DNA of 64,000 nucleotides from Paenibacillus polymyxa M1 (GTDB lineage: Bacteria; Bacillota; Bacilli; Paenibacillales; Paenibacillaceae). The notes under the pieces are model-generated. The model was not told where the DNA came from, did not search any database, and saw only the letters and a program-made list of their open reading frames with translations. A program made the position numbers and the translations under genes. Of the stretch, positions 1 through 31,467 are shown piece after piece (the first letter of the stretch is position 1; each line of letters starts with the position of its first letter). Location: the NCBI RefSeq assembly GCF_000237325.1, contig NC_017542.1, positions 4,542,001 through 4,606,000 of the forward strand, given 5' to 3'.

Positions 1-16
1 CTGTTTTTCGATGTTT

Positions 17-1690
17 CTAAAGAACTCCATAACTGTGGAATCCAATATCATCACGTTCCTTTTGGATTTCGATATTCAGGATATGGTCACATGCTGCTAA
101 TAGTCTCTGGTCATGTGATACCACGATTGTTATCTTTCTTGACTTTTGCTTAGTCAATATTTCTACAAGTCCACTTACACTCTTTGAATCTAGGGCTGAT
201 GTTGGCTCATCAAGAATCGTTAAGAATGAATCTTTACTTAATGCACGAATCAAAGATAATTTTTGCTTTTCACCACCAGAAAAGTTGCTCCCATTTTCAT
301 TTATTAATATATTTTCAAGGTTAGATTTTGTTATCATCCCTTCAAGACCAAAGGCATTTATAAGCTCATTTTGGTTACTAGCAGTCTCTTTCGAAAAATT
401 AATTCCAAATCTTAAATATTCCTCTATTGGTAGATTTAAAAACTCCGGATTCTGTTCTACATAAGAAATTTTAAAACGCCTCATATTAAGCATATCCAAA
501 TCTTTTATGGAGCAATTATTAAAAGCTATCTCTCCTGTGTAAAGATCACTATATAGACCTATCATAGTATTAAGTAATGTTGTTTTGCCTGAACCATTAT
601 GGCCACATATCCCGTAAATTTCCCCCTTAGAAAAATCATAAGAAAAGTCTCTAAATACGCTTTCACCAGAATATTTAACACCTAATTTTTTAATACTTAT
701 TTTCTCTAATTCTACAAGTGTTGCACTACCATAAATATCATTTTCAGATTTCATAATGTCATTTAACCGTTCTATCGATACTTTCGTCTCTTGGTATGAG
801 CTTGCTAAACTTAATAAATATGAGGTTGACGAGATGATCATTGAAAGGTAGGTGTTAATTATAGTGAACTGCCCTACACTCATTTGGCCAATTACAACTT
901 TATGACCTCCAATTCCAATTACAAATATATAGCAGATGATCAATATAAATTGATTTAGATTTGAGAAAATATAATTAGTTTTCACTTGTGAAGTCGCAAC
1001 TCTAAATAATGAATTAAATGCTTTATTTAACCGCTCATTCATTTCATTAAAGAGTACATTCTTCTTTATAAAAACCAATTTGTTAATTTGTTCGACTTTT
1101 TTAGAGTAGTATTCATTTGCTTCTTTTTTGTATTTCAAATTTGCTTTATACAATTTTTTTCTAAAAACCACATATGTAAATATATAAAATGGAATAAGCG
1201 AGAAAATTATAACGCATAGTAGTACATCAGCTTTTAAAACAATAATACCGCTGACAATTATTGTTATTACTTGCAATACTAAGTTAGAAATATTATTTGA
1301 AAAAAAGTCAACTACTGTGGATGAATCATTATTAATTTGGTCAACTAAGTATGCATTATCCTTATCTTTGAAGACCGACAGTTTGGTTTTAAATATCTTT
1401 TGATAGATATCATTGCAGATTTCGTATAATAATAAATTATTCAATTTGGTAGAGAAAAGAGCAGTTAAATATTGTATGAGAATGTTTGCTATATTTATAA
1501 TCCCCAGTAACAGTACAAAATATAAAATGATACTTATATTACTTTTTGATACTAAATAATCAATATATATGCCTGTGATGTAAGGCACAATAATTCCTAT
1601 AATCCACAATACTGAAGTAACTGCAATGTAAAAAAATACATACTTGCGCGTTTTTGAAAGGTATTTTTTCAAGTATTCTAGGACTATCAT
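17..1690 (-). CDS. ABC transporter, fused permease and ATPase (putative RiPP exporter)
   Basis: This is a half-transporter of about 557 residues that probably exports the modified peptide encoded just upstream. The N-terminal 300 residues contain several hydrophobic segments of an ABC exporter membrane domain. The C-terminal part is a full ATPase: Walker A GHNGSGKTT, signature FSGGEKQK, Walker B LTILDEPTSALD and a switch histidine in VVSHD. There is no N-terminal C39 peptidase, so any leader removal must be done by another protein. I chose the ATG at 1690 because AGGTGATG lies at a good distance; GTG 1699 and ATG 1696 are possible. It is the last gene of the radical SAM operon seen here and is as AT-rich as its neighbours. 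Export of the peptide is inferred from context. Confidence 0.85.
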   Translation of the reverse strand: MIVLEYLKKYLSKTRKYVFFYIAVTSVLWIIGIIVPYITGIYIDYLVSKSNISIILYFVLLLGIINIANILIQYLTALFSTKLNNLLLYEICNDIYQKIFKTKLSVFKDKDNAYLVDQINNDSSTVVDFFSNNISNLVLQVITIIVSGIIVLKADVLLCVIIFSLIPFYIFTYVVFRKKLYKANLKYKKEANEYYSKKVEQINKLVFIKKNVLFNEMNERLNKAFNSLFRVATSQVKTNYIFSNLNQFILIICYIFVIGIGGHKVVIGQMSVGQFTIINTYLSMIISSTSYLLSLASSYQETKVSIERLNDIMKSENDIYGSATLVELEKISIKKLGVKYSGESVFRDFSYDFSKGEIYGICGHNGSGKTTLLNTMIGLYSDLYTGEIAFNNCSIKDLDMLNMRRFKISYVEQNPEFLNLPIEEYLRFGINFSKETASNQNELINAFGLEGMITKSNLENILINENGSNFSGGEKQKLSLIRALSKDSFLTILDEPTSALDSKSVSGLVEILTKQKSRKITIVVSHDQRLLAACDHILNIEIQKERDDIGFHSYGVL

Positions 1691-1721
1691 ATTCATCACC
1701 TATATTTCATATTAGGTAAAT

Positions 1722-1754
1722 CTTAGCGAGATGCTGAAACAGCATCTCGCTAAG
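1722..1754 (-). terminator. Strong hairpin between precursor and exporter
   Basis: Two perfectly complementary 15-base arms (1722-1736 and 1740-1754) are separated by AAA. It lies 19 bases after the precursor stop codon. On the transcribed strand the bases that follow are only moderately T-rich (ATTTACC), so it may be a leaky terminator or an mRNA-stabilising stem that gives more precursor than transporter. Confidence 0.6.
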
Positions 1755-1773
1755 TAATGTTACTTCTCTTAAG

Positions 1774-1869
1774 CTACATCTTGTAGGAACAAGAAAGAGT
1801 ACAGCCACTTGAACCGTGGAAAGGACAATGTGCACTTACTTGTACAGCACTTTTTACTAATACGTCCAT
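1774..1869 (-). CDS. Candidate RiPP precursor peptide, 31 residues, three cysteines
   Basis: This short reading frame has an excellent ribosome site (AAGGAGGG at 1877-1884, seven bases before ATG). It encodes 31 residues. The N-terminal half (MDVLVKSAVQVSA) has no cysteine and is leader-like; the C-terminal half carries HCPFHGSSGCTLSC, with cysteines at 15, 23 and 27 (spacing C-x7-C-x3-C), then SYKM. It sits between a radical SAM/SPASM gene and an ABC exporter, the usual place for a sactipeptide or ranthipeptide precursor. Cysteine-to-alpha- or beta-carbon thioether links would be the expected modification, but this is inference. There is no Gly-Gly leader site. I do not recognise the peptide as a named product; it resembles in style the short Cys-rich peptides paired with SPASM maturases in clostridia. 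Confidence 0.75.
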   Translation of the reverse strand: MDVLVKSAVQVSAHCPFHGSSGCTLSCSYKM

Positions 1870-1935
1870 GGTTTTTCCCTCCTTAAATTTTAATTTATAT
1901 AAATAACATACAGTTGAAAAACTATATGCTACTTA

Positions 1936-2583
1936 TCACTTTTGAGCTGCAATAGAAAATGCACTGTTTTCAAGCGTGATATTTATTTTTGCTTTACCTG
2001 CCCCATTTATATAGTTATATGTTAAGTTTGGTCTAAACAATGGCCATCCCGCAGGAACACTTAATGCACTTGCAGTCGTCTTAACTGTAACCGTGTAATC
2101 GGAAGCTCCTTTACTAAAAGTTAAGGAACCTGAACCTTTTGTATTGTCATAATTAATGGCTTTTGAGTATCCTACAGGCACACGAACTGACATTGAGGAA
2201 CCATCTACACCTGTGATATCAAGATTAGTATTTAGCTCTGGAAGTGAAACTCCAGCCTTTGTACTTTCCACCGTTATTTTTTCATAACTTTTTTCAGGAA
2301 TTAAAATATTAACTCTGTCGGAAATGCCGTTAACTGAGCCTTTCCCCTTTACTGTGATGTAAATTGTATATCCACTTAATGTAGAAGTGACAGTATACAA
2401 GGATTTGTTATACTCATAACTAAAATCACTTGCTGAAGTTTTTGTAACGGTGACATTACAATTTATAGCCGTTAGATTGATATTCTTAACATCATTTGAA
2501 GCTGCATTACTTGAAGAACCTAATGGCATCCCCATAAGTAAGAAACCACATAAAACAATACACATTTTTTTTAGCATTAACAT
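1936..2583 (-). CDS. Exported beta-rich protein (DUF4097-like)
   Basis: The protein has 215 residues and begins with a signal peptide: KK, a hydrophobic run (MCIVLCGFLLMGMPLG) and a likely cleavage after SNAA. The rest is rich in Ser, Thr, Val and Gly in alternating hydrophobic/polar strands, like the right-handed beta-strand repeats of DUF4097 proteins. It has no recognisable catalytic motif. Its start overlaps the end of the radical SAM gene by seven bases, so the two are translationally coupled; GGAGG lies ten bases upstream of the ATG. Its place inside a RiPP operon suggests a surface-located immunity, binding or anchoring role, but that is a guess. Only the signal peptide and the coupling are directly visible. 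Confidence 0.75.
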   Translation of the reverse strand: MLMLKKMCIVLCGFLLMGMPLGSSSNAASNDVKNINLTAINCNVTVTKTSASDFSYEYNKSLYTVTSTLSGYTIYITVKGKGSVNGISDRVNILIPEKSYEKITVESTKAGVSLPELNTNLDITGVDGSSMSVRVPVGYSKAINYDNTKGSGSLTFSKGASDYTVTVKTTASALSVPAGWPLFRPNLTYNYINGAGKAKINITLENSAFSIAAQK

Positions 2584-3905
2584 GATTCAGAAACCTCCTT
2601 CTTATTTTCCGTTAATTGTCCAGCCAGTAATACTTTCGTGCACTCGGTAATATACTCCTGCAAATTATAACGATATTGCTCACATATGTTAAAGTCTGCC
2701 ATTCTATTGTGAGGGCATCCTCCTAAACACACAGGTAAGTACTTACAGTCTGAACATTTTTCATCTTCAGTAGGATCATATAATAAATAACAACCAAGAA
2801 GCTCAGTATTCCATTTCACTGATGTATCTTCATTTATAATTCCAACACACTGCTCAATAATTCCAATATCGCTCCAACATTTATATAAATGACCAAGAGG
2901 ATCAATAACGAAACTATTATACTTATCCGCAGAACAATAATTACCTTTAGGTGCAGGATAAATATAACTAATTGGGATATCATTTTCCGACATAAATTTT
3001 AAATTAAATTTTGAATACATCTCGTCTGTCAAGCACTTAGTTCCCTCATACTTTCCATTCGTCGGCGTAACTAATCCTAGATAAGGTATTACATTTTCCA
3101 ATAAAGAATTTTCCTTTAAGAATCCTACGATTTCATGTAAATTCAACCAGTTGTCTTGGTCAGTATTTATTCTCATAAATATCTTAATCATCCCTTTAAT
3201 TTGCTTGAGGTTATTCATTATGACATCAAATGTCCCTCTTCCACTTACTAAAGGGCGTCTAAGATCATGTACTTCTTTAGGACCGTCAACAGTGACTTGA
3301 ATATCATTTACTCCACATGAGATTAACGTTTGAACTTTTTCTTTATTTAAAAGATAGCCGTTTGTAATGACACTGGCCGTATATTGTATATTGTTTTCTT
3401 TACATATTTCCAAAAAATCTTCCGATATCCTAACTATCTGCTTCATTGCAATCAAGGGCTCACCGCCATACCATGTAACATTAAGAGTGTCAAGTTTACT
3501 AGCATTTGTTTTAACAAAATTGACTATACTTTGAGCTGTTTCTTCACTCATAGTTTTGTTATGATATTGGTCTTTCTCAAAACAGTATACACATCGAAAA
3601 TTGCAGGCCATTGTAGGGGCAATTGTTAGCATTAAATTAGAAGATTCAAACCGATTTTTTAAGAGGTTTACCTTTACATATGCTTTTTCATTCATATTAT
3701 CTTCTACGATATAGCCACATTCGATAAGATTTTTAAGATAAGTATCATTATTTATTGCCAATCCATTGTTTGTAAGTTCGCAAAACTGTTTATAGTACTC
3801 CGGTTCAAGAACTGCCAATGCACCTGTTCGAGAATTATAAAGTACCGTTTTATCGGTATTTTCAATAATGTCATTAAAAATAAAGTTATATTGCGAAGCT
3901 TTCAT
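2577..3905 (-). CDS. Radical SAM/SPASM peptide maturase
   Basis: This 442-residue enzyme carries the radical SAM cluster motif CNFRCVYC (Cys101, 105, 108) and a C-terminal SPASM region with CSDCKYLPVCLGGC (Cys384, 387, 393, 397), Cys408 and earlier cysteines that would bind auxiliary Fe-S clusters. The first 80 residues resemble the precursor-recognition segment found in such maturases. Family members cut S-adenosylmethionine to form a radical and cross-link cysteine sulfur to peptide carbon (sactipeptides, ranthipeptides), or join side chains. The 31-residue peptide gene downstream is the obvious substrate. AAGGAGGG precedes the ATG by six bases. It is the first gene of the operon. An anaerobic sulfatase-activating role is possible for this superfamily but no sulfatase is nearby. 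Confidence 0.9.
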   Translation of the reverse strand: MKASQYNFIFNDIIENTDKTVLYNSRTGALAVLEPEYYKQFCELTNNGLAINNDTYLKNLIECGYIVEDNMNEKAYVKVNLLKNRFESSNLMLTIAPTMACNFRCVYCFEKDQYHNKTMSEETAQSIVNFVKTNASKLDTLNVTWYGGEPLIAMKQIVRISEDFLEICKENNIQYTASVITNGYLLNKEKVQTLISCGVNDIQVTVDGPKEVHDLRRPLVSGRGTFDVIMNNLKQIKGMIKIFMRINTDQDNWLNLHEIVGFLKENSLLENVIPYLGLVTPTNGKYEGTKCLTDEMYSKFNLKFMSENDIPISYIYPAPKGNYCSADKYNSFVIDPLGHLYKCWSDIGIIEQCVGIINEDTSVKWNTELLGCYLLYDPTEDEKCSDCKYLPVCLGGCPHNRMADFNICEQYRYNLQEYITECTKVLLAGQLTENKKEVSESC

Positions 3906-3941
3906 TTTAGCCCTCCTTAGAATGGATACGGTCCTTATGTA

Positions 3942-3970
3942 ATTATGAATCGATTATTAATTAGTGACAA
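3942..3970 (-). promoter_or_regulatory. Probable promoter of the radical SAM operon
   Basis: On the minus strand TTGTCA (3965-3970) and CATAAT (3942-3947) are separated by 17 bases, 37 bases before the maturase start codon. The region from here to 4200 is AT-rich and non-coding; I saw no convincing pair of LytTR-type direct repeats in it. Confidence 0.45.
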
Positions 3971-4202
3971 AATTCACATAAGTTTTAAAAATAAGATGTA
4001 CGCTCATTTTGAGTTGCAAATTTCATTCTTGCAGTGCACCCTAGATAGCTTTTACTTCTCGGCTTTTAATGTAGCATAAGGCAAAAAGAAAAAATAAGCT
4101 TGTATCCTGAAATGCAAAAAAATCCATCTCAACGACCAAATATGTCAGCTTCATGTGAGATTAACATTTTTGTTACCTATATTTCTTTAATGGTAAAGTA
4201 CG

Positions 4203-4388
4203 TTACTTGTTAATTCTTTGTTTATATGTCCAAAGAAAATAAAGGATTAGACTGCTTGAGACCGCAGCAAAGATTAAAAGCACTAGGAGCGTGCAACTGC
4301 TTGTTCCTCCGTTGTTGTAACGCGAACTGAACCAGTAGAGCTTTAGCTGAATACTTTTATAAAGGCTGAAAATAAGGTTTCTAAGCAA
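4203..4388 (-). CDS. Small membrane protein of unknown function, possibly a broken gene
   Basis: A 61-residue frame from TTG 4388 has one strong membrane segment (CTLLVLLIFAAVSSSLILYF) after a basic, aromatic stretch with RYNNGG. No ribosome site fits the TTG. A better one, GCGAGGG followed by ATGGATATG, lies about 25 bases upstream but in another frame; removing one base of a T6 run would join the two and give a slightly longer protein. The RY..GG......C-type spacing faintly recalls the AgrB peptidase core, but the catalytic His is absent, so this may be a decayed agrB fragment, an immunity microprotein, or not a gene. It lies between the RiPP operon and the Agr-like regulators. Confidence 0.35.
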   Translation of the reverse strand: MLRNLIFSLYKSIQLKLYWFSSRYNNGGTSSCTLLVLLIFAAVSSSLILYFLWTYKQRINK

Positions 4389-4573
4389 TAAAAAAGAACA
4401 TATCCATTCCCTCGCCTGGGCTACGTCCTCTCCACAGTATAAGTATGCATTTGAACTTTTACTAACAAAAATTCCATAACCTGATGGTAATTATTTTCAT
4501 ATGTAAAACATCACTTCGAATAGACTTTTTTTACAATATACTGGATTTATATAACATATTTGAGGTGGTCTAT

Positions 4574-5320
4574 TTGTTTCAAGTTGCTGTTTGTGACGAT
4601 GATCCCGCAATGCATAAAATTTTACAACACTTTTTCATGTGTATGTCAGTAAGTGAATCCTTAGATTTTAATCTACAATTCTTTTTATCGGGGGAAGATC
4701 TAATCAAATCTTATAGTTCACAAGAGCGATACTCCTTTCATATTATCTTGTTAGATATTGAAATGAGGGAATTATCGGGAATTGAAACTGCAAAACTTAT
4801 TCGCCTTTTTCCTGACCGAGAAGTTCAAATCATATTTCTAACTAACTATCCAGAATACATGCTAGAAAGTTTTGAAGTACAAGCATTTCAATATTTACTT
4901 AAACCCCTTACTTATAAACTCTTTGTAGAAAAGATAAATAAACTATGTCATTATATGCGTTCTTCAGTATCCCACTTTCTATCTGTGAAAAATAAAACTG
5001 AGCATCTTGTATTGAGACACTCTGAAATCATAGCCATCTCAAAAGGTGAAAACAATTACATCCATAATGAACTTTGTATTGCAACGGATTCACACAACTA
5101 TTTTATTTCCGGAACGTTGAAAGCGGTTTATGAACAATTAAAATATCCGTTTGTGTTTATACATAGGTCAATAATTGTGAATTTAGTTCATATACGTAAG
5201 TTTTCAACTACTTCTGTTATTATGTCAAACCAACAAGAATTTCCTGTAGGTCGTTCTCACGCTAAATCGCTTCGTGAGGCGTATGCTCGTTTTATAATTT
5301 CTCGTTTTCAGGAAGGGTGA
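4574..5320 (+). CDS. LytTR-family response regulator (AgrA-like)
   Basis: The 248-residue regulator has an N-terminal receiver with the acidic pocket DDD (in VAVCDDDPAM), phospho-acceptor Asp in ILLDIEM and the conserved Lys in LLKPL. Its C-terminal LytTR DNA-binding domain includes the features EIIAISKGENNYI, VFIHRSIIVNL and FPVGRSH. I chose TTG 4574, preceded by GAGGTGG, because the receiver fold begins directly after it; an upstream ATG at 4484 would add 30 residues not typical of the family. Its stop overlaps the GTG of the sensor gene. LytTR regulators usually bind direct repeats upstream of peptide genes, so the neighbouring RiPP operon is its likely target. Target and signal are inferred. 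Confidence 0.88.
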   Translation: MFQVAVCDDDPAMHKILQHFFMCMSVSESLDFNLQFFLSGEDLIKSYSSQERYSFHIILLDIEMRELSGIETAKLIRLFPDREVQIIFLTNYPEYMLESFEVQAFQYLLKPLTYKLFVEKINKLCHYMRSSVSHFLSVKNKTEHLVLRHSEIIAISKGENNYIHNELCIATDSHNYFISGTLKAVYEQLKYPFVFIHRSIIVNLVHIRKFSTTSVIMSNQQEFPVGRSHAKSLREAYARFIISRFQEG

Positions 5321-5604
5321 GTTTTTTGAATCATTGCGTTTACATTAATGTCACCTCGTTTTCTAATTACTCTTTATTTTTGTTTAGCACAACAAAGCAA
5401 AGTGATTTTTCCAATCCAATAGTTAACCTTTTTTTACTTTTCGCCTCTTTATACTTCATACTTATTATAGTACTATTCGTTCATTATTTAAAAAAAGGAA
5501 GAAAATACAATATAGGGATTATGTATTATTTTGTAATATTAATAGGAACATCGTTTAACTTATTCATACATTATAGTTTATTTTCTTTAATGAAATATAA
5601 TTAA
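5317..5604 (+). CDS. N-terminal membrane part of split Agr-type sensor kinase
   Basis: The 95-residue product contains two hydrophobic segments (around NLFLLFASLYFILIIVLF and MYYFVILIGTSFNLFI). It ends at TAA 5602-5604, and the same reading frame continues without any shift into the kinase part that follows, which suggests one sensor gene interrupted by a nonsense codon. The GTG at 5317 overlaps the regulator stop codon; TTG 5326 is better placed behind GGAAGGG. Taken together the two parts would make a protein of about 340 residues with three visible membrane segments, shorter than a six-segment AgrC sensor. Confidence 0.6.
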   Translation: MSFLNHCVYINVTSFSNYSLFLFSTTKQSDFSNPIVNLFLLFASLYFILIIVLFVHYLKKGRKYNIGIMYYFVILIGTSFNLFIHYSLFSLMKYN

Positions 5605-5613
5605 TTCCTTATA

Positions 5614-6339
5614 ATGTCAATAATCGGTATTATTGGAATGAACGTAATTATTGTCTTTCTAATGGACAAGCTGATAGAAAAGTCAAACCTCTCACGCTTT
5701 TTTCAAAAGCAAATGCTGATGCAAGAAAAACATTATAAAGAAACAACTCGATCTCTTAGTGATATCAAACGAAGTATTCATGATTTCAAAAAACAGTTAA
5801 TATTTGTCCGTGCTTGTCTACAAGAACAGAGGACGGAAGAGGGTGTTAATCACATTAACCAAACTCTAGAAAATATAGAATCACCACGACTTCATATAAC
5901 AACAGGACATCTTGTTATTGATGCCTTGGTAAATCACACTTTCAGCATCGCTGATAAAAGTGGGATAGCTTTCTTTCATCAAATCCATATTAACCCTGCA
6001 AACATTAGTATTGGAAGTCATGATCTATGTATTGTCTTAGGTAATGTTTTCGATAATGCTATTGAAGCTGTAAGGCAGCTTCCTAGAAAGAAAGAGCATT
6101 CAATTCATTTGGAAATTTTAACCGATAATTCTGCCCTATGGATTTATGTTCGCAATTCAAAAAGTAATTGTCTCAATACAGCATTCTCAACCAAAACATA
6201 CACCCCCCCTTTAAAAAAACATGGGTATGGATTACTTAACATCCATCAAGTAATAAAGAAGTACGGTGGTTATTTAAATACAACAATTACGGATTCAAAT
6301 TTTCAAATTACGATTATGATTCCATGTAATAACCCTTAG
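5614..6339 (+). CDS. C-terminal GHKL kinase part of split Agr-type sensor
   Basis: This 241-residue part begins with a third membrane segment (MSIIGIIGMNVIIVFLMD), then a coiled linker, the probable phosphorylated His in RSIHDFKKQL, the N-box GNVFDNAIEA and the ATP-lid motif GYGLLNIHQ of AgrC/GHKL kinases. It starts nine bases after an in-frame TAA, and no ribosome site precedes its ATG, so independent translation looks poor. It may be a pseudogene half, be made by readthrough, or reflect a sequencing error. If functional it would phosphorylate the LytTR regulator in response to a peptide. Confidence 0.65.
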   Translation: MSIIGIIGMNVIIVFLMDKLIEKSNLSRFFQKQMLMQEKHYKETTRSLSDIKRSIHDFKKQLIFVRACLQEQRTEEGVNHINQTLENIESPRLHITTGHLVIDALVNHTFSIADKSGIAFFHQIHINPANISIGSHDLCIVLGNVFDNAIEAVRQLPRKKEHSIHLEILTDNSALWIYVRNSKSNCLNTAFSTKTYTPPLKKHGYGLLNIHQVIKKYGGYLNTTITDSNFQITIMIPCNNP

Positions 6340-6412
6340 ATTTGTAAACATTATGAATTAATGGCTATTCAGAATAAATAAAATGTCGGTAAATACCAGT
6401 CTTATAACAATT

Positions 6413-6459
6413 AAAAGGGAGTGTCCTCAAGCCTATGATGGCTGAGAGCACTCCCTTTT
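6413..6459. terminator. Bidirectional terminator between sensor kinase and agcS
   Basis: AAAAGGGAGTG (6413-6423) pairs with CACTCCCTTTT (6449-6459), with more pairing inside (CTCAAGCC/GGCTGAG). A-run and T-run flank it on both sides, so it can serve both converging genes. It also marks the right edge of the AT-rich island. Confidence 0.8.
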
Positions 6460-7944: not shown

Positions 7945-8035
7945 CTGGAGAGGTTAAAGGCACGAAAAATAAACCAATTTGTACAGGATTTTATCTCTAA
8001 AAAGCCTAGAGTATTCCCTGTCACAGGTTATTCGC

Positions 8036-8215
8036 GTCTCTGTCCTTTTGCCTGAGAGTTTAAGCAGATGATAATCTGCGGTGCACCTTCGGCGCCCAAT
8101 TAAGGGTCTCTCCAGAGTTCTGTCCGTTTACGGTCCCTGCTTGTTGCTGTAAATCAGCTTAAGCACCTGAGAGTTTTGCCCCTTCGGTCGGAACTTTCGT
8201 TCCATCTCCCGCAAA
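8036..8215 (-). ncRNA. Tandem glycine riboswitch
   Basis: Reading the minus strand, two glycine aptamers lie in series. The first has GCGGGAGA, GACCGAAGGGGCAA and ACTCTCAGG; the second has CTGGAGAGACC, GCGCCGAAGG and ACTCTCAGGCAAAAGGACAGAG. This is the classic cooperative arrangement of the gcvT-type motif. It is followed by an intrinsic terminator and the agcS gene. A stretch of this RNA alone would control expression in response to intracellular glycine. Confidence 0.95.
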
Positions 8216-8244
8216 CATCAACCAGACATATGAAATTTTTATTT

Positions 8245-31308: not shown

Positions 31309-31330
31309 ATTAGTCAAAAGAATAGGAAAG

Positions 31331-31417
31331 TCCACTAGGGGAGCCATTATGGCTGAGACAAGAATGAACTTGGACCCTTTGAACCTGATCTAGTTCGTAC
31401 TAGCGTAGGAAAGTGGA
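31331..31417 (+). ncRNA. TPP riboswitch (THI element)
   Basis: The aptamer shows CTAGGGGAGCC, GGCTGAGACAAG, GACCCTTTGAACCTGATC and the closing GCGTAGGAAAGTGGA. These are the conserved parts of the thiamin pyrophosphate riboswitch. It is followed by a terminator and thiamin salvage genes, which it should shut off when TPP is abundant. Confidence 0.96.
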
Positions 31418-31467
31418 GCCTTCGTATATAAGGTTTCAAGCGTTTTCTGCGCATTGAACCTATGTTG

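Follow-up and report, generated by a model that had tools for sequence, protein, structure and literature searches.

A compact low-GC island in Paenibacillus polymyxa M1 with two radical SAM maturases of different families, each beside its own peptide

Introduction

What is made by a small operon of Paenibacillus polymyxa M1 in which a radical S-adenosylmethionine (SAM) maturase is encoded close to a 31-residue, cysteine-bearing peptide, and how far does that operon extend? The question is raised by the left end of a 64,000-nucleotide stretch of the genome (assembly GCF_000237325.1, contig NC_017542.1, positions 4,542,001 to 4,606,000 of the forward strand), which we call the window. A first-pass annotation, made from the letters alone, had read four genes there as an undescribed operon for a ribosomally synthesized and post-translationally modified peptide (RiPP): a radical SAM/SPASM maturase, an exported protein, the short peptide and an ATP-binding cassette (ABC) exporter, all in one direction behind one promoter. 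Open reading frame (ORF) and profile scans find all four genes on the minus strand where they had been placed, and profile scores, like the peptides in related loci, support a RiPP operon in which a SPASM maturase and an exporter accompany a Cys peptide. The four-gene extent, in contrast, has to be revised. The left edge of the window cuts the operon, and beyond the edge lie a second radical SAM/SPASM enzyme (rSAM2) and then a second peptide.

The locus is thus a real and compact RiPP island: it encodes two maturases that belong to different families and pairs each of them with a peptide of its own. We refer to the first maturase (rSAM1) and peptide 1 as module A, and to rSAM2 and peptide 2 as module B. 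The explanation that we consider likely is that a horizontally acquired island makes two different radical-SAM-modified peptides from a single operon.

Results

The maturase of module A, rSAM1 (2577..3905, minus strand, 442 amino acids), has the radical SAM core cysteines C101/105/108 (CX3CX2C) and a seven-cysteine SPASM domain of pattern C324-X13-G-X4-C343-X40-C-X2-C-X5-C-X3-C-X10-C; these cysteines, with those of the core, are all invariant in a 40-row alignment. The best NCBIfam model is that of the Clo7bot maturases (TIGR04334), at 310.4 bits and under the curated cut-off of 600. The first-pass annotation had proposed a check against sulfatase activation, a non-RiPP family; the sulfatase-maturase model gives 79.8 bits (cut-off 349), far under the peptide-maturase models, and the comparison of 79.8 with 310.4 bits rules out an anaerobic sulfatase maturase. 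In a tree of 71 enzymes, the root of which is weak (69/86), rSAM1 falls within a 28-row set (support 96/88) that leaves out the three Clo7bot rows. The sequence marks rSAM1 as a peptide maturase of the SPASM type that does not belong to the Clo7bot clade.

The structure model of rSAM1 contains a confidently modelled N-terminal domain (residues 1-90), which looks like a leader-recognition element. Searched with Foldseek, the model finds its best Protein Data Bank matches in 5why and 5wgg, with template-modelling (TM) scores of 0.64-0.68 and root-mean-square deviations of 6.5-9.7 over nearly the full length (about 450 columns), whereas SuiB gives TM scores of 0.49-0.53 and deviations of 12.6-12.9, also nearly full length. 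We take 5wgg/5why to be CteB, the thioether-forming maturase of the SCIFF ranthipeptide. The overall architecture is the same by Foldseek and also by profile match; however, the identity is 18-20%, the deviation is as large as just given, and leader and core differ.

Relatives of rSAM1 are numerous, 2315 of 5059 candidates matching at E 1e-30 or better, so that module A represents a large set of maturases. The nearest named relatives come from Clostridia and the closest overall, at 59% identity, from metagenomes. Scanning the genome contigs with the single rSAM1 sequence gave no match, whereas an alignment-based scan did recover relatives. On plasmids, the relatives found with rSAM1 were all under 60% identical, and a search for further Clo7bot plasmids returned 4 records. 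A plasmid of Paraclostridium bifermentans (L093) carries a Clo7bot locus in which seven peptides are annotated as members of the Clo7bot family; a peptidase-MA-like and a toast-rack gene are also present.

Peptide 1 (1774..1869, minus strand) has 31 residues, MDVLVKSAVQVSAHCPFHGSSGCTLSCSYKM, with cysteines at positions 15, 23 and 27, and is preceded by a GGAGG ribosome site; it has no profile match in NCBIfam or Pfam. We looked for comparable peptides in 73 related loci, kept from 122 by a model score of at least 320 and after removal of 7 duplicate loci, the copy in a second species genome (G025) being included. A short ATG-started ORF with a ribosome site and at least two cysteines, outside the large ORFs, is found in 45 of the 73. 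A short peptide at homologous loci was the other check that the first-pass annotation had set itself, and many loci do carry one with a similar leader: a Cys peptide with the leader motif lies within 3 kb of the maturase in 30/73 loci in the sense direction against 2/73 antisense (27/73 with the ORF filter just described). As the motif, a regular expression, was composed after viewing the data, the independent test is a leader profile trained on 44 peptides with the two Paenibacillus genomes left out. This profile ranks peptide 1 third among 373 frames, that is, all ATG-started frames with at least two cysteines in 76 kb, nested starts counted apart. Leader-like peptides lie directly downstream of the nearest related maturases, and the three closest loci with DNA have MTVLVQP... 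(one Cys), MKVLVKP... (three Cys) and MKVLIQP.../MKILVQP... (three Cys each).

Arrays also occur among the relatives. In one locus (L153, 1589-4196) a single maturase is followed by seven Cys peptides, all different but with short leaders that resemble one another (MLYLI and MEFLI, for example), and another (L009, 3910-6172) has, beside the rSAM1 relative, a second, more distant maturase with three near-identical 37-residue peptides (MR[IT]VREAQ...).

Peptide 1 itself is already in print, and the epithet 'undescribed' has to be withdrawn. It is identical at 30 of 31 residues to sacti10 of P. polymyxa Kp10, which the available passages of PMC7343975 present as a sactipeptide predicted with BAGEL4 and without similarity to database proteins. 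The sacti10 cluster is printed there as 68257-73648, or 5.39 kb, which is the length from rSAM2 through rSAM1 in M1. Given this equal length, the sacti10 cluster is very probably the same operon; the same passages make no mention of a second peptide. Among the matches listed in the open-licence literature, main texts only, the prefix of peptide 2 appears in no paper, and neither peptide prefixes nor family names lead to a further paper on the operon. The names Clo7bot, TIGR04334 and geopeptide are used in no open-licence paper searched; since the module A clade is itself nameless, a characterised member may exist elsewhere. SacP23, another sactipeptide of P. polymyxa, is not this system: by the part of PMC10731318 that describes it, both cluster and peptide differ, and the enzyme belongs to TIGR04068.

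Module B points to a different known family. The 511-residue rSAM2 (L007:10519-12054, minus strand), of which the window holds the 5' end at 1..54, scores 492 bits with the RumMC model NF035951 (cut-off 720), and the 64-residue, Cys-bearing peptide 2, encoded beyond the window edge (L007:10289-10483), reaches 41 bits with NF035954, the model for CA_C0660 sactipeptides (cut-off 60). Both are under these equivalog and subfamily cut-offs and are related to the families rather than curated members. The SPASM motif of rSAM2, CX13GX4CX36CX2CX5CX2CX18C, is an exact match to that printed for RumMC in the accessible text of PMC6779426. Moreover, peptide 2 has cysteines 24, 26, 43 and 47, spaced 2/17/4 exactly as are cysteines 22, 24, 41 and 45 of RumC (given in the part of PMC8188230 at hand), with an extra Cys 45; when five cysteines are placed at random in 64 residues, this spacing arises in 60 of 200,000 draws. 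In a large protein set peptide 2 matched itself only (four member sequences, ten contigs). A precomputed label, PF27802, was not reproduced by our own Pfam scan. Module B thus pairs a RumMC-like maturase with a peptide that resembles ruminococcin C, an antibiotic known from the gut.

The likeness to ruminococcin C (RumC1-5, RumMC1/2), as far as the sources above describe it, covers the peptide length (64 against 63 residues), the cysteine spacing and the SPASM motif. There are also differences: peptide 2 has the additional Cys 45, its residues at the offsets of the RumC acceptors are F, I, L and S, the island scores stay under the model cut-offs, and there is one precursor rather than five and no protease in the operon.

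We read the genes as one operon because they are closely spaced and overlap and because a terminator-like hairpin follows peptide 2. The secreted-protein gene and rSAM1 overlap by 7 bp and the exporter gene and rSAM2 by 38 bp, and the gap between rSAM2 and peptide 2 is 35 nt; the reading frames of all operon genes are open throughout in M1. The hairpin after peptide 2 lies outside the window (L007 10207-10250, z -8.9). A second hairpin stands just after the peptide 1 gene (1722..1754, minus strand; stem 15 bp, loop 3, -25.6 kcal/mol, z -7.9), and its stem is largely retained in G025; it is possibly a partial terminator, or an mRNA stabiliser, that raises peptide 1 over the downstream genes. 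Neither hairpin was listed by a simple pattern scan. The operon block is retained in G025, with rSAM1 99% identical and peptide 1 the same in 31 of 31 residues. A segment of about 200 bp between the regulator and the operon, upstream of rSAM1 (window 4180-4379), is absent from G025; checked as a repeated element in the genome, it gave just one further match, of 28 bp.

The operon lies, with a divergent LytTR/GHKL two-component pair, in an island of low GC content (0.28-0.35 per kb, against 0.39-0.51 in the stretches beyond), flanked by a sugar-transporter permease gene and an alanine/glycine symporter gene. Fourteen genomes were searched for these two genes, and three others (G061, G063 and G045) have the pair without the island, the matches lying 162, 149 and 116 bp apart, whereas the gap is 8.4 kb here. 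By alignment, the inserted DNA runs from about window coordinate -1934 to about 6413 and is 8.35 kb long; the window holds 1..6413 of it. No mobility gene was seen among the open frames of the island. Since the nearest named maturases are clostridial, transfer from that group is likely; the island is probably foreign, mobile and horizontally acquired.

The exporter gene (17..1699, minus strand, 560 amino acids) encodes a PF00664 membrane domain and a PF00005 ATPase and has no C39 peptidase domain match; probably both peptides share this one ABC exporter lacking a protease domain. In 40 of the 73 related loci, a match to ABC transporters is found on the maturase strand no more than 5 kb away. 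The exporter membrane domain is found by Pfam in 28 of 100 neighbour ORFs, a count that covers 100 of 183 such ORFs in 38 loci, those dropped being mainly from lower-scoring or non-Bacillota loci. The first-pass annotation had noted the lack of a C39 or other protease as unusual. No protease is indeed encoded in the island operon, but this is not unusual, for related loci often pair a maturase with an ABC transporter and few have a secreted S41 peptidase. An S41 gene lies within 3 kb and on the same strand as a related maturase in at least 6 of 42 genomes, a figure with no base rate and for which five of the proteins were read; two more (G079, G578) are near the maturase on the opposite strand, and all 42 genomes have S41 genes somewhere. 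Extracellular trimming by S41 enzymes may be a theme of part of the rSAM1 family that is wanting in the island.

The gene between rSAM1 and peptide 1 (1936..2583, minus strand) encodes a small protein of 215 residues whose N-terminus, by eye and hydropathy, looks like a Sec-type signal, with no visible membrane anchor. It had been called an exported DUF4097-like partner; the DUF4097 label is weak, at 16.2 bits with PF13349 (cut-off 22.9) and, for the LiaG model NF049997, 22.4 bits (cut-off 285). The structure model is all-beta, at a low-confidence mean predicted local distance difference test score of 51.6 that makes it too poor to use, and the protein has one partial homologue besides itself (45%). 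By PF13349, a DUF4097 gene lies near the maturase in 1 of 42 genomes (G081), to which the toast-rack gene of the Paraclostridium Clo7bot locus may be added; the toast-rack/DUF4097 proteins of that locus and of one Clostridia genome have no signal peptide by eye and hydropathy. These cases are too few for us to claim a general association of DUF4097 with the maturases.

The divergent pair consists of a LytTR-type response regulator (4484..5320, plus strand; PF04397 and PF00072), with a true start that by eye is probably near 4574, and a GHKL sensor kinase gene (5317..6339, plus strand). In M1 the kinase gene is split by an in-frame stop into open pieces at 5317-5604 and 5614-6339, whereas the relative G025 (L089) has an intact 340-residue ORF.

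Discussion

How might such an island work? What we observe comprises the genes and their order, their conservation in a second genome, the boundaries of the island, the family relations of enzymes and peptides and the cysteine spacing; from these we infer all chemical, transport, immunity and regulatory steps. The N-terminal domain of rSAM1 would bind the short leader of peptide 1 (MDVLVKS...), and the enzyme would then crosslink the Cys-bearing core. The RumMC-type rSAM2 would put C-alpha thioethers on peptide 2, giving a double hairpin like that of ruminococcin C. The shared ABC exporter would take both peptides out, and the leaders would be trimmed by a protease of the host or the extracellular medium, which we propose because none is encoded in the island. 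The secreted beta protein would act extracellularly, its likeliest role being to bind peptide in immunity or as a chaperone, and the divergent LytTR/GHKL pair would control the operon, possibly by sensing its product.

Several results weigh against this explanation. Both rSAM1 and rSAM2 stay under the curated cut-off of each of the best 25 models, and within the genus rSAM1 is found in 2 of 75 genomes, its own included, with rSAM2 in the same two. The filter finds no short two-cysteine ORF in 28 of the 73 related loci, in part through contig ends and strict rules. In a close relative (L149) the precursor-like peptide, MTVLVQPIVRDVEIRCGGLAGSINYTGPIIVE, follows the maturase by about 40 nt and has a single cysteine; several cysteines are therefore not a rule of the family, which calls for caution over multiple thioethers, and this peptide hints at another chemistry. 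A BLAST homologue of the beta protein occurs in 1 of the 73 loci, that of G025. As for the single promoter that had been proposed, a site TTGTCA-17-CATAAT does stand upstream of rSAM1 (3942..3970, minus strand, by pattern scan), but sites of this type are about as common in shuffled sequence (36 against a mean of 35.4), so that one promoter is plausible and not demonstrated. With its sensor kinase gene broken, M1 may not express the operon at all. In the Kp10 study, the available passages report that the predicted sactipeptides were not detected in active fractions (PMC7343975).

A doubtful but live alternative is a two-component bacteriocin after the manner of thuricin CD, in which the peptides would act jointly on a single target and the maturases would form a complex. 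According to the passages available on it, thuricin CD (TrnC/TrnD) has two precursors and two radical SAM enzymes in one cluster, as does the island, and the presence in one operon of a pair of peptides, a pair of maturases and a single exporter suits this alternative. However, the best-scoring models of the two island enzymes belong to different maturase families, and each enzyme is encoded beside its own peptide; moreover, peptide 2 has no module A leader, ranking 35th of 373 by the leader profile, and the modules could be independent products.

Rather improbable, in our estimate, is that peptide 1 is a signal: modified and exported, it would be an autoinducer that the GHKL/LytTR pair senses, and peptide 2 would be the effector. 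The divergent pair does lie inside the island, and some related maturases have LytTR or GHKL genes as neighbours (2 of 100 neighbour ORFs for each type), with response-regulator matches in 5 of 73 related loci, G025 included and some more than 5 kb away. Yet most related loci show no such pair nearby, and the kinase is broken in M1. Finally, that the peptide 1 frame is open by chance or is the remnant of a precursor, and that rSAM1 has another substrate such as the beta protein, is very hard to sustain: its mere 31 residues and lack of an NCBIfam or Pfam match are outweighed by the full conservation in G025, the strong ribosome site, the 30 of 31 residues kept in Kp10, the third rank of its leader and the peptides with similar leaders that directly follow the nearest related maturases.

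Returning to two different modified peptides from one acquired operon, we find that each half of the island resembles something known. Clo7bot systems share with module A a short leader, a Cys-bearing core, a SPASM maturase and an ABC transporter, and the Paraclostridium locus also has a gene annotated as DUF4097 (toast-rack by Pfam). They differ in that rSAM1 reaches 310 of 600 bits and is placed apart from the Clo7bot rows in the tree, and in that the Paraclostridium array has many peptides with an MKFIKKP-type leader and a toast-rack protein without a signal peptide by hydropathy. What is new is the pairing, the unnamed module A clade and the secreted partner. A bolder proposal, which we advance as speculation and think unlikely as a whole, is that one mobile cassette couples two radical peptide chemistries, that of a clade with a leader of about seven residues and cores down to one cysteine (perhaps non-thioether) and that of a ruminococcin-C-type sactipeptide, with both products exported jointly to serve as a two-peptide weapon and the beta protein conferring immunity outside the cell.

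The island would be an easily grown, non-clostridial source of two radical-SAM peptides. Of these, the module B product may be an antibiotic of the ruminococcin C kind, made by a bacterium that lives in association with plants. Having two maturase families in one operon would also allow a test of whether such enzymes are interchangeable.

Elsewhere in the same genome there is a PapB-like ranthipeptide maturase (L004 1246-2301; 203 bits, cut-off 340). Within the window, two adjoining glycine riboswitch matches (8030-8221, minus strand) lie upstream of the alanine/glycine symporter gene that flanks the island, and a TPP riboswitch match lies at 31327-31428.

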